From: Pseudomonadota bacterium
GTDB lineage: Bacteria > Pseudomonadota > Gammaproteobacteria > Steroidobacterales > Steroidobacteraceae
Assembly: GCA_021816775.1 (NCBI GenBank)
Contig: JAKAXA010000003.1
Span: 62,001 to 126,000, forward strand
Direction: 5' to 3'
DNA length: 64,000 nt
The stretch's first letter is position 1; each line of letters begins with the position of its first letter. Below the pieces are notes generated by a model. That model saw nothing but the letters and a program-made list of their open reading frames with translations, had not been told where the DNA came from and ran no database searches. The translations under genes and the position numbers were made by a program. Positions 2,212 through 8,580 of the stretch are shown piece by piece.

Positions 2212-2360
2212 GGCGCCCCGGCGGCGCGCGTGATCCGGCGGTCATGAGCCTATGCCCGCGGGTGCTTGATTTTCCGCGCCGGCCCCCCCGAGAATCGCCG
2301 TGGATCGCCCGGCACCGGGCGAGCCTGCTGTCGGCGGCCGCGCCGCGCTCGAGGGGCTCA

Positions 2361-3677
2361 ATGTCACGTCGTAGTTTCGTCGCCTCGGCGGCGATTGTGT
2401 GCGTCTGCGCGCTCGCGCCGGGGCCGGTTCACGCGGCCGACCCCGCTGCGGTGCAGACCGCCAGTTCCGGCAACACCGCCTGGCTGCTCACCGCCACCGC
2501 CCTGGTGCTGTCGATGACGCTGCCCGGCCTGGTCGCCTTCTACTCGGGCCTCGTGCGCAGCAAGAACGTCCTGTCGGTGGCGATGCAGTGCTTCGCGATC
2601 GCCTGCCTGGTGAGCATTCTGTGGCTGGCGGGCGGCTATGGACTGGCGTTCGGCCGCGGCGGTGCGCTGCAGCCGTTCATCGGCTCGCCCGCGGCGGACT
2701 GGCTCGGCGGCATCGATCGCAATGCGCTGCACGGCACGACGCCCGTGGCCGCATTCGCGATGTTTCAGCTGACCTTCGCGACCATCACCCCGGCGCTGGT
2801 GATCGGCGGATTCGCCGAGCGGATCAAGTTCAGCGCCGTGCTGTGGTTCGCGGGCCTGTGGCTCGTGTTCGTCTACCTGCCGGTGTGCCACTGGGTGTGG
2901 GGCGGCGGCTGGCTCGCGCGGCTCGGGGTGCTCGATTTTGCCGGCGGCATCGTGGTGCACGTCACCGCCGGCGTCGGGGCGCTGGTGAGCGCGCTGGTGC
3001 TGCGCGAGCGCAAGGGGTTCCCGCACATCGCCATGCCGCCGCACAACATGACGCTCACCATCGTCGGGGCGGGCATGCTGTGGGTCGGCTGGTTCGGATT
3101 CAACGGCGGCAGCGCGCTCGCGGCCAACGGCTCGGCCGCCATGGCCATTCTCGTGACGCAGCTCGGCGCCTCGGCCGGGGCGCTGGCGTGGATGAGCGCC
3201 GAGTGGCGCAAGTTCGGCAAGCCGAGCGTGCTCGGGCTAGTGACCGGAATGGTCGCGGGGCTCGGCACCATCACGCCGGCCTCCGGTTTCGTCGGGCCGC
3301 TCGCCGCGGTGGCGATCGGCGCGGCCGCGGGCCTGGTGTGTTTCTCGGCGACGCAGGTGCTCAAGCGCAGGCTGCTGATCGACGATTCGCTCGATGTCTC
3401 CCCCGTGCACGGTGTCGGCGGCGCGCTCGGCACGACGCTCACCGGCGTGTTCGTCGCAGCGCCTCTCGGCGGGATCGGCTATGCAGCCGGGATGAGCATG
3501 GGCCGTCAGGTTCTCGTGCAGATCCTGGGTGTGGCGAGCGTGGCGCTGTGGTGCGCCGGCGCCACCTACGTGATCCTCAAGGTCCTGCAGGCCACCCTCG
3601 GGCTGCGCGTCAGCGAGGACCAGGAGCGTGAGGGGCTCGACCTCTCACAGCACGGCGAGCGCGCATACAATGAATGA
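2361..3677 (+). CDS. amtB: Ammonium transporter AmtB
   Basis: This is an inner-membrane ammonia/ammonium channel of the Amt/MEP/Rh family. The ATG at 2361 begins a cleavable signal peptide (MSRRSFVASAAIVCVCALAP, cleavage likely after VHA), as in other AmtB proteins. About eleven membrane segments follow. Family signatures are FAERIKFSAVLWF, the HNMTLTIVGAGMLWVGWFGF block carrying the first pore histidine, and DVSPVHGVGGALGT carrying the second. At 438 aa the length is normal. No glnK/glnB gene is adjacent, although amtB is often paired with one, so regulation by PII would have to act in trans. Confidence 0.95.
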   Translation: MSRRSFVASAAIVCVCALAPGPVHAADPAAVQTASSGNTAWLLTATALVLSMTLPGLVAFYSGLVRSKNVLSVAMQCFAIACLVSILWLAGGYGLAFGRGGALQPFIGSPAADWLGGIDRNALHGTTPVAAFAMFQLTFATITPALVIGGFAERIKFSAVLWFAGLWLVFVYLPVCHWVWGGGWLARLGVLDFAGGIVVHVTAGVGALVSALVLRERKGFPHIAMPPHNMTLTIVGAGMLWVGWFGFNGGSALAANGSAAMAILVTQLGASAGALAWMSAEWRKFGKPSVLGLVTGMVAGLGTITPASGFVGPLAAVAIGAAAGLVCFSATQVLKRRLLIDDSLDVSPVHGVGGALGTTLTGVFVAAPLGGIGYAAGMSMGRQVLVQILGVASVALWCAGATYVILKVLQATLGLRVSEDQEREGLDLSQHGERAYNE

Positions 3678-3764
3678 TGCGCGCGCCGCGCGCGCAACGC
3701 GCCGCGCGCGGGGGCGCGCGGTCGTGCCGGTCACGGGGTGGATCCGTTCGGGAGGGTAATCAGC

Positions 3765-4118
3765 ATGCACATTCTGGTGATGATCCTGTTGTCGGTTCAC
3801 GCGCTCGCCGGCGTGTTCTGGGTCGGCTCGACGCTGGCCCTGACGCACTCGTATTTCGAGGTGACCGCAAAACTGTTTCGCGCGCAGATGGCAGCGGCGG
3901 CGATCGCGGTCGTGGCGGGCCTGGCCTTGTGGGGCATCGTCATCCGCGGCGCGCAGGGACCCATGACGCAGACTCTGGCGCTCGGGGCGGTACTGGCTCT
4001 GATCGCCGCCGGCGTGCAGGGCGCGATGCGGCGCGCGCCGGTGCGCGCACAGCGCATCGCTGCGGTGCTCCTGTCCGGGACCGTGGTCTGCATGGTGATC
4101 GCGCCGTACGTGACCTGA
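3765..4118 (+). CDS. Small four-helix membrane protein of unknown function
   Basis: A 117-residue protein with about four hydrophobic segments (MHILVMILLSVHALAGVFWV at the N-terminus, then near residues 40-58, 65-80 and 93-115). The HALAGVFWVG start resembles short HemJ/CopD-like or DUF2269-like integral proteins, but no diagnostic residues fix a family. ATG 3765 is preferred over the upstream GTG at 3738 because GGGAGGG ends 8 bases before it. The gene lies 87 bases after amtB on the same strand and could be co-transcribed. Confidence 0.55.
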   Translation: MHILVMILLSVHALAGVFWVGSTLALTHSYFEVTAKLFRAQMAAAAIAVVAGLALWGIVIRGAQGPMTQTLALGAVLALIAAGVQGAMRRAPVRAQRIAAVLLSGTVVCMVIAPYVT

Positions 4119-4217
4119 CCGGCGGCGGGCGGTACCGCCGGGCGCGCCGCGGGTCTGAGATCGCGCAGCTCGAATCCGGAGCAAGCCGCCAGGCGCCTCG
4201 TCGCCCGGACTCGCCCC

Positions 4218-4325: not shown

Positions 4326-4633
4326 AAAGCGAGTGGGGGGGCGCCGGGAGATCGGCAAGGAGCAGGTGGTGAAAGTCCGCCGCGATGAAGATGGAGCGAG
4401 TCACATCGACCCCGAGTCATGCGCAGCGTTCCGCGAGGGAGCCGGCGAAGCGTTGACAGGGGAACGTGCGGGCCAGCCATCGAGCCGCGAAAGGCTTTAC
4501 GGTCAGGATGCCGACACTGTCCCACTGGCGGCAGGCAACACGAGCGACTGCGATATCGCGAACGATCGCTCGATCCTGCGTGGTCATAGAACCTGCCATG
4601 CACGCCCGCTCCTTGAGCGGGAACCGGGAGATC

Positions 4634-5418
4634 GTGCAGCGACGCTAGCTGCCATTCCAGCGGGTGTGAGTCCCGTCGGTGGAGATTGCCCAGTTGACAC
4701 CGTAGTGATATCCAGCGGCGGGGAGGGCGACCGAACCGTCGAAAGCCTGGAAGTAAAAGCTTCCGAAAGGGAGGCGAGCAACTCAGCAGGTTGTAGCGTA
4801 AGCGAATCAGTAAGCCCCGAAAGGTTGACTTTGGGAGTGGCCGAACCGTTGAGATCTCTCGGTGAAGGTCAGCGCTCGTCGTGAAGGAACTGGGTATATG
4901 CAACGACAGGCTCCCCGGGGACAGTGAGGACGACATGCTGGGAAGGAATGGTCAGCGAAAGCGCGGAACCACTCGCGGGTCGCCGAGGCGCTCCCGCACA
5001 GCGAAGGCATCGCATATAAGCCGCTGGGCGGTGAAGTTGTGATGTGCCGGCGAGTGGGGCGGATGGGGCCGGATAAGCGTTGATGGACCGGGACACTATA
5101 ACCCGGACCGGAGTGAGGGCCCCTGGGGTAGAGCGGCATAGGTCGCTCGAATGGCGGTGCTTGACGACGTGGGAAGCGGACGGCTCAGAACGTCGGCTCA
5201 ATCGCCGCGAACCGAGAGCACGAAGGACGGAGGCAAACCGCAATCTTGTGATGGGCATGCCGGGAGCAGGCTTAACCGGCCGAGATTTCGGGAAGGCGCT
5301 GTCTGAAAGGCCAGCCTTGGAGCCGTACTGGGGGAAACCCGCCGTACGGAATCTTAGGGGGGACAATGGAGACGTCGGCATCATTCGAAGCCCGGTCCGC
5401 GCCATTGTCCTACCCGAC
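4634..5418 (+). ncRNA. Group II intron B, ORF-less ribozyme with domains V and VI
   Basis: Domain V is seen at about 5320-5353: GAGCCGTAC, a GGG-GAAA-CCC hairpin with a GNRA loop, and the returning strand GTACGG. The basal pairs on the 3' side (AATC) are imperfect. Domain VI follows: GGACAATGG (5361-5369) pairs perfectly with CCATTGTCC (5402-5410). It ends in TACCCGAC at 5411-5418, a usual 3' end with a candidate branch A at 5412. The 5' end is placed at GTGCAG (4634), close to GUGYG. No protein is encoded, and 785 nt suits an ORF-less intron. Confidence 0.6.
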
Positions 5419-5480
5419 TCCAGCTTGGCCACCTGCCCCTCGGGGGTGGTCCGCATCGGCACGGCGAGGAGCCGCAGCCG

Positions 5481-5860
5481 ATGATGCACAAGCCGGAGAA
5501 GTCAGACCTCTCCGAAGTAGCGAGGAGGCCGACGAACGCCTGCGCGGGATTGCAGGCGGAGCCGGTGGAGCGATGGGAGGGGGCCGCGGGGAACACGGGC
5601 AAGACCAGCATGCATCGGACGCCGAGCCGGGCAAGCGTGTTTCCTGGGCTCGCACGTGTACGAGAGCGAGCGAAGCGAGAGAAGAAGGAGCGGCTCACCG
5701 CTCTGCTTCACCATGTTGATGTTGATCTGCTGCGGGCGGCCTTCTCCCGGCTGAGGCGGGACGCGGCTGCGGGGGGGTAGCTGGACTGACACGCGGACAA
5801 TGGGTATCTGAGCCAATCGAACGTCGAGCAATGCGAGGCGGCGAGCATCGAGCCCGTTGA
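5481..5860 (+). pseudogene. Intron-encoded reverse transcriptase/maturase, N-terminal fragment, frameshifted
   Basis: The first 99 codons (5481-5780) give an RT leader and the RT-0 region of group II intron proteins: KKERLTALLHHVDVDLLRAA followed by FSRLRRDAAAGG. At a run of seven G (5771-5777) the frame hits TAG. In the +1 frame (5777-5860) it continues as GVAGLTRGQW, corresponding to the family's PGVDGVTW, before ending. Everything after RT-0 (fingers, YADD, domain X) is missing, replaced by a transposase remnant. GAGGAG upstream of ATG 5481 is a good ribosome site, so this was once a functional start. Confidence 0.75.
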
Positions 5861-5862
5861 TC

Positions 5863-6148
5863 GCCCTCGGGCGCTGCGCCCATCACCTGACGTGGAAGCA
5901 GCGTTTTGCCCACGCTCCGAAATCCCCGCCCGACTCGGCCGCGCCGCTGGAGAAGATGGCGTATCGACTGCGTACCCCGCGCGGGAAGACGCTGTACGGG
6001 TTGCGCAAGCAGACCCCGGAACCGTTGTTCGGCGGGTGATGGGCTATCGCCAATGCCTGCTGCGAGGGCTCAAAACGTCAAAGGCGAGTGGAATCTGGTG
6101 AGCATGGGCTGGAACATCAAGCGGATGATCGCGCTGCAGGCCTGCTGA
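5863..6148 (+). pseudogene. IS1182-like transposase, C-terminal remnant with two frameshifts
   Basis: Three consecutive frames together reproduce the end of a DDE transposase of the IS1182 type. They read MAYRLRTPRGKTLYGLRKQT then PEPLFG (frame of 5857-6039), VMGYRQCLLRGLK (next frame) and GEWNLVSMGWNIKRMIALQA (third frame, stop at 6148). The TLYGLRKQTPEPLFG...GYRQ...LRGL...GEW...WNIKRM series is the conserved C-terminal signature, with the catalytic Glu in PEPLFG. The N-terminal two-thirds is absent. It directly abuts the truncated RT, so this insertion or a later deletion probably removed the rest of intron A. Confidence 0.7.
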
Positions 6149-8082: not shown

Positions 8083-8580
8083 GTGCGCTCTCCCAGTAGG
8101 GGATAGACCCACCCGGCAGACCGTCGCCCCAGCCGGTAGCCACCGGAGCGGTTGCGGGGATAACGAAGCGACCGGAGCCTTCGAGACAAGGGGTCACCGG
8201 CGGGTGAGTCTGTGAACATGCGGGCTGCAACGAGCAGTGAACGGTGAGCAGGTCCCGAACACGGAGCCACGGATGCCGACTCTGTCGGAACTCGGCAGAA
8301 GGCTGGCACGGCTGGCGAAGCGAGCGCTGAGTGCAGCCAGTCGGTCTGCCGGGATCATGACGGTGGCACGCGTGTCCAGGGGGAGTGGCGCGACACGGGG
8401 AGCCCTCGGGTGGCGGACGACGGCGTGCAACCGGATCTCCGAGAGGGGAAGACCGGGCCGCTCGAGGATGGCGGACGGGCTGGTAGGACCTGTGAAGACG
8501 GGTAATGCCGGCGGAGGTCAGGAGCCCGAGTTCAAGGTCAACGCAAGACGTGGTGCAGGGCCTGGGGATTGGATCGTATG
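8083..8580 (+). ncRNA. Group II intron C, 5' (domain I) fragment
   Basis: The stretch starts with GTGCGCTCTCCCAGTAGGGG, matching the GUGYG 5' consensus. It continues with many short complementary segments, including GCCGGTAGCCACCGG, CTGTCGGAACTCGGCAG and GAGTTCAAGGTCAACGCAAG, in the style of domain I of bacterial group II introns. Its sequence differs from introns A and B. No reverse transcriptase and no domain V/VI follow; at about 8588 a transposase remnant takes over. It is therefore a truncated, dead copy. Confidence 0.55.

Follow-up and report, generated by a model that had tools for sequence, protein, structure and literature searches.

The window, a 64,000-nt stretch of contig JAKAXA010000003.1 from a Steroidobacteraceae bacterium (assembly GCA_021816775.1), carries a nested pair of group II introns (a twintron), in which an intron lacking an open reading frame (ORF) is inserted in a second, RF02005-type intron encoding a reverse transcriptase (RT). 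Rfam models detected two distinct group II D1-D4 cores in tandem in the window: RF02005 at 4372-4593 (165.2 bits) and RF02003 (group-II-D1D4-4) at 4658-4801 (89.6 bits; gathering score, 49), the latter covering part of the core of the inner intron. Three uninterrupted introns from Bradyrhizobium, Cupriavidus, and Microvirga plasmids (L002 to L004), the first two with an annotated ltrA and the third in a record without annotation, match both sides of a single gap at 4634-5418. When 300 nt from each flank of the window were joined, they matched all three introns in one piece of ~600 nt at 71.7 to 73.9% identity. Because the joined flanks align continuously with uninterrupted introns, positions 4339-4633 and 5419 to ~5790 were taken as a single outer intron, which is continuous once the insert is omitted. 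The insertion point lies in the leader of the outer intron, between the ribozyme 5' part and the RT ORF, after ...CGGGAACCGGGAGATC and before TCC.... The original prediction had proposed at least two introns, with an ORF-less one at 4634-5418 in the leader of a larger RT-encoding intron; the gap is exact against the three uninterrupted introns, and the continuous alignment of 4339-4633 with 5419 onward bears this proposal out.

The domain V and VI features predicted at 5320-5418, upstream of the RT start at 5481, are likewise present, with the domain V hairpin at 5320-5353 and the end of the insert at 5418. Placement of D5-D6 upstream of an RT start would also fit a single intact intron at 4333-5418 that adjoins an RT fragment of unrelated origin, or else a circular permutation in which D5-D6 of the group II RNA precede D1. 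Both are contradicted by flanks that join continuously with uninterrupted introns and by the insert, which alone possesses both ends and runs from D1 to D6, as holds for all 20 full-length members of its family. These two readings have practically no chance of being correct.

Both introns of the nested pair, their features given below, and the transposase remnant that follows them lie on the plus strand. The 5' part of the outer intron, from domain I onward, occupies 4339-4633, as assigned by the RF02005 match and the alignment with L002 to L004. Its 5' end, set by homology near 4339, reads GGGCGCC (GTGCGCC in L002 and L003); the stretch predicted at 4333-4633 is thus an intron 5' part, with its start moved from 4333. 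The continuation at 5419-5790, aligned with the same three introns, comprises the remainder of the leader and the start of the RT ORF, from which a truncated RT/maturase N terminus of 99 amino acids (5481-5780) is 48% identical to residues 1 to 81 of the L002 RT. The outer intron is incomplete: homology ends near 5790 and not at 5860 as first proposed, the frame is lost near 5775, and the rest of the intron is replaced by an IS1182-family transposase remnant at 5990-6137, with 73.9% identity to a gene annotated as an IS1182 transposase. This remnant begins near 5790 by reading only. Because the frame is lost near 5775 and the remnant follows after ~5790, we regard the outer intron as truncated in the window. 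Five translated fragments of the window gave no match above the cut-offs in Pfam. Elsewhere in the window, a second RF02003 core was found at 8094-8235 (71.5 bits), and positions ~8490-8530 read like leader sequence from the RF02003 introns in which the GAS478 copies described below are nested, with no RT noticed beyond; this region looks like another intron remnant.

The inner intron (4634-5418) is 785 nt long, runs from GTGCAG to TACCCGAC, and is missing from the three uninterrupted introns. Its EBS1 loop, GATCTCTC at 4853-4860, pairs with an IBS1, GGGAGATC, at 4626-4633 within the outer intron. By reading, this interaction amounts to 8 pairs including one G-U, with the last six nucleotides pairing 6/6. 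Full-length homologues of the insert, with corresponding ends, occupy unrelated sites. The window copy lacks three stretches of D1 (24 to 41, 17 to 18, and 5 to 6 nt), all of which are kept in each of the 16 other main-type full-length members aligned, a comparison set that leaves out L019, L022, and L023; this copy is therefore probably decayed and may be dead. Minimum free energy folding of the whole insert gave a z score of -1.48, with 3 of 20 shuffles as stable. Given the truncation and frameshift of the outer intron and the deletions within the inner copy itself, the twintron in the window is probably a nonworking relic.

Plain DNA similarity recovered relatives of the inner intron in 1 of 60 related genomes and 1 of 369 genomes of the class, both hits being the window's own genome, and recovered none in phages; two patterns run on viral contigs also found no relative. 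Among plasmids, four Bradyrhizobium records matched, nearly equal in length and matching only the 3' half of the insert, and the 5' half searched alone had no plasmid match. The 3' half in one of these plasmids (L006) is 70% identical to the inner intron, with changes in D5 and D6 that are compensatory by reading. A cobalamin riboswitch (4572-4772 in L006) lies just downstream of the L006 family member.

The inner intron has an atypical domain V. A 34-nt D5 with an AGC triad and a two-base bulge and a D6 with a bulged A near the 3' end are both present, and the match of RF00029 to 151 bases of the window (5318-5418; 21.9 bits; E value, 0.014) falls below the gathering score of 40. The D5-D6 match expected at 5320-5418, whose absence the original prediction had named as a ground for refutation, was thus not obtained at the gathering score, but the subthreshold match, together with covariation and the existence of relatives, shows an unusual domain V/VI. 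Domain V (5320-5353), as defined by alignment and covariation of 31 members, has a pentaloop, a CC bulge, and a 1x2 internal loop beside the AGC triad. Against the RF00029 consensus, the family domain V differs in the pentaloop (GNAAA) that caps its upper helix, in its CC bulge, and in an additional A opposite the G of the triad; the standard for the usual form is in part general knowledge of group II introns. RF00029 did not match the family domain V of 20 further loci (family or related members) at E values up to 10; in the same scan, a 24.7-bit match elsewhere than the family D5 had an E value of 1.1. At the gathering score, none of the 40 pattern-derived loci scanned (all 41 save L039) was matched on its own domain V. 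In the portion of a 2022 survey available to us, the D5-D6 cut-off was >24 bits, above the score of the window member (PMC8919778). Since RF00029 does not match the family D5, domain-V-based surveys would tend to miss the family.

Domain VI (5361-5410) consists of a covarying stem, with double changes in 6 of 12 pairs, and a conserved terminal part. The perfect 9-bp stem of the original prediction is there, formed by GGACAATGG (5361-5369) and CCATTGTCC (5402-5410) and followed by TACCCGAC ending at 5418. The A at 5412, the seventh nucleotide from the 3' end, is the predicted branch point; it forms part of a bulged UA, and the corresponding A93 is invariant in the 31 rows of alignment A1. Covariation was assessed on 31 main-type members (29 distinct). 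In the D5/D6 structure, 98.7% of cells were paired, 77 cells carried a double change, and the outermost D5 pair was AU in 13, CG in 11, and GC in 5. The covariation score was 0.303, against at most 0.084 for slid versions of the structure, and three of five measures beat all 500 column shuffles. The other two were not above the shuffles: 9 pairs showed a double change (mean of shuffles, 7.4; reached by 59 of 500), and 22 further pair types were counted (mean of shuffles, 23.2; reached by 460 of 500). Within domain VI, conservation is higher in the terminal part (A1 columns 51 to 83, GTCGGCATCATTCGAAGCCCGG) than in the stem beneath it, which suggests a binding site or tertiary contact.

A D5/D6 pattern drawn from the window intron and its Bradyrhizobium plasmid relative retrieved 41 stretches when run against 84,980 species genomes, match counts here being lower bounds because they are based on few reference introns and an exact pattern; the D5-D6 of all 41 were read. 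Both ends were recognized in 20 members including the window (18 by alignment, with the 3' ends of L019 and L022 placed by motif). These members are 759 to 885 nt long, begin with GTGCAG (16 members), TTGCAG (3 members), or TGCCAG (1 member), and end with TACCCGAC (17 members) or TACCCGGC (3 members). In a translated search of 43 stretches with two RTs, the matches in full-length members fell outside the insert; in L046, which has no recognized 5' end, an RT match lies 95 nt upstream of its D5. RF02003 matches were found in 12 of 12 carrier genomes searched, with ORF-less copies scoring 51 to 90 bits where listed above the cut-off and L016 scoring 49.8. By record title, the carriers include Acidobacteria, Myxococcota/Deltaproteobacteria, Alphaproteobacteria, Nitrospinae, Nitrospira, Planctomycetota, Omnitrophota, and others; single taxon assignments may be wrong because most carriers are metagenome-assembled genomes (MAGs). 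With stricter filters, a D5-D6 model matched 6 of 396 genomes of one phylum at E values up to 1e-9, the seed genome included, so the family is widespread but not common.

Several matches fell outside the family or at its edge. The candidate member L007 (an H29 match) turned out to be an RT intron of the ordinary kind, whose D5-D6 scores above the Rfam cut-off, and was rejected; weak R1 matches (35 to 60 bits) were a mixture that included an ordinary-looking RT intron (L075). Further D5-D6 matches at L071, L072, L073, L084, and L085 have other odd forms of domain V (for example, ACCGGA...TCCGGGATT); L073 and L084 are followed by sequence that, by reading, resembles a host domain V in its 3' half.

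In every full-length member (20/20), the EBS1 loop in D1, homologous to that of the window, pairs 6/6 with the last six bases of the member's own 5' flank. In 5,000 reassignments among members, the mean number of perfect pairings was 2.1 and the maximum was 8. The number of independent cases is somewhat below 20, because loop and six-base flank are the same within two pairs of members (L019 with L022 and L040 with L044). This fit to each site bears on the possibility that the inner intron is dead DNA carried along by recombination and that the family consists of degenerate, ORF-deleted relics without mobility. Such a reading would agree with the D1 deletions of the window copy and with the atypical domain V, but the compensatory changes in D5 and D6, the 20/20 fit of EBS1, and the presence in one genome of a relative in ten nearly identical copies (see below) argue against it, and we consider it improbable.

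We favor a mobile ORF-less lineage and turn to where its members sit. The comparison started from 43 stretches (the 41 pattern-derived ones plus L006 and the window). L016, L036, L039, and L047 were excluded; the other 39, each with a usable end and 50 nt or more of flanking sequence, had their flanks matched against a limited panel of group II introns at E values up to 1e-4. Flanks of 16 of the 39 members matched other group II introns, compared with 5 of 280 control windows from the same loci (all five in L012, L020, and L021); the positives are not all independent, as several loci come from one MAG. The match was continuous across the junction in 9 of the 19 members having both flanks. The remaining 23 members had no group II intron flank by alignment, and three of these were nested by reading: L024 before the D6 of its host, L030 within a D6 belonging to a member of the family itself, and L019 joined head-to-tail to a second copy, for a total of 19/39. 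The earlier statement that natural bacterial twintrons are rare therefore needs qualifying, since nesting is frequent in the lineage of the inner intron.

Insertions were distributed over much of the host intron: the 5' stem (L031 and L032), domain I (L010, L012, L021, and L022), the leader (window, L027, and L042), the RT gene (L009), domain V (L020 and L028), and the D5-D6 linker (L013, L024, L035, and L046). L041 is a weak case in which the match begins 91 nt from the insert. Open host RTs above the TIGR04416 cut-off were present in L020 (425 amino acids), L022 (505 amino acids), and L027 (514 amino acids). Some members are located elsewhere, an example being L025, where the neighbor is a transposase-like frame. 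In L030, at 572-1406, a family member lies within domain VI of a member of the same family. Two ORF-less introns stand head-to-tail with zero spacer both in L019 and in L153 (reverse strand, 2326-4163), which suggests that such pairs arose by insertion at the 3' end of an existing copy.

The nesting might be a by-product of insertion anywhere in nonessential DNA, with mobile introns serving as tolerant landing pads that are seen more often. The 23 of 39 members without an aligned group II flank would be expected under this explanation, the EBS1 matches are short, and the insertion sites share no obvious common motif by reading. Against it stand the excess over control windows (16/39 versus 5/280) and the recurrence, by reading, of similar host positions in different genomes (L010 and L021; L035, L024, and L046). 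We regard a by-product as possible but doubtful.

A related ORF-less intron was found in Bradyrhizobium erythrophlei GAS478 (G427, reached via L021), in ten copies of 918 to 920 nt that are 97.5 to 100% identical. Alignment of the insert with family members (E value, 1.4e-20 to L022 and 1.5e-8 to the window copy) was the sole ground for accepting these copies as relatives; their domain V is another variant, scoring only 37.6 to 44 bits with R1. Four of the ten show a junction-spanning alignment to an uninterrupted intron of the RF02003 type in a different genome (L128), and the hosts of these four are higher-scoring RF02003 introns. For L152 and the first copy in L153, the intron match was confined to the upstream flank; the second copy in L153 is in tandem, and three copies have no match. 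The genome has 46 matches to the group II RT model, 12 of them above the cut-off. Judged from the sequences, this case looks recently active.

Among the carriers, a group II RT above the cut-off was found in 23 of 34 genomes or records (11/12 and 12/22; the L031 genome is outside this count). The other 11, many of them MAGs and one a plasmid record, had no RT above the cut-off, and 3 of these had no match at all. The genome from which the window comes has, on another contig, one open RT above the cut-off (592 amino acids), and it also has one fragment. This distribution may be read as compatible with help in trans. We propose that the lineage presumably moves by retrohoming with RTs of other group II introns acting in trans and that it would often land inside those same RT-supplying introns, sometimes in domain V, the D5-D6 linker, domain I, or the RT gene. 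A host so interrupted would work again only after the inner intron had spliced out first. In the window, the ORF-less intron would have reverse-spliced into the leader of the RF02005-type intron, guided by EBS1-IBS1 pairing; the outer intron would then have lost its 3' part, and the inner copy probably decayed. Splicing, use of RTs in trans, and the order of events are all inferred from sequence comparison.

The arrangement is known in kind. In the available portions of the account of Thermosynechococcus elongatus, ORF-less TeI3 introns lie inside RT-encoding TeI4 introns, with EBS/IBS pairing as here, and ORF-less introns were mobilized in assays by the protein encoded by the host intron (PMC2882425). 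That case concerns one genome, whose ORF-less introns descend from a resident intron through deletion of its ORF, and five twintrons, with one site between two start codons (PMC2882425). The family described here, unlike that of T. elongatus, occurs in many bacteria, has a ribozyme type unlike that of the RF02005 host and an atypical D5, and is found at many positions, including the host D5. The nested introns of Methanosarcina acetivorans (Dai and Zimmerly 2003, as described in PMC4424553) similarly show repeated homing into group II introns and ORF-less members; these are nested arrays in one archaeal genome, and the available part of that description makes no mention of an unusual domain V. 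The Trichodesmium erythraeum twintron also has a group II intron in domain I of another, and sequential splicing was shown there, but it is a single case in a protein gene, and the portion of the report at hand describes no family of ORF-less invaders (PMC4649490). Circularly permuted group II RNAs, according to the part of the source available, are likewise bacterial, group II-like, and without an ORF (PMC8637638), whereas the insert described here has the normal domain order. A search of the open-licence literature found no title or abstract on this ORF-less family. We accordingly regard the lineage, but not the nested arrangement, as a new variant.

The GAS478 case looks testable, since one genome combines ten nearly identical copies with 12 RT matches that exceed the cut-off. 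If the family does splice and move, its members would be natural nonautonomous introns dependent on the proteins of other introns, and such dependence is a stage that is often proposed for the evolution of spliceosomal introns.
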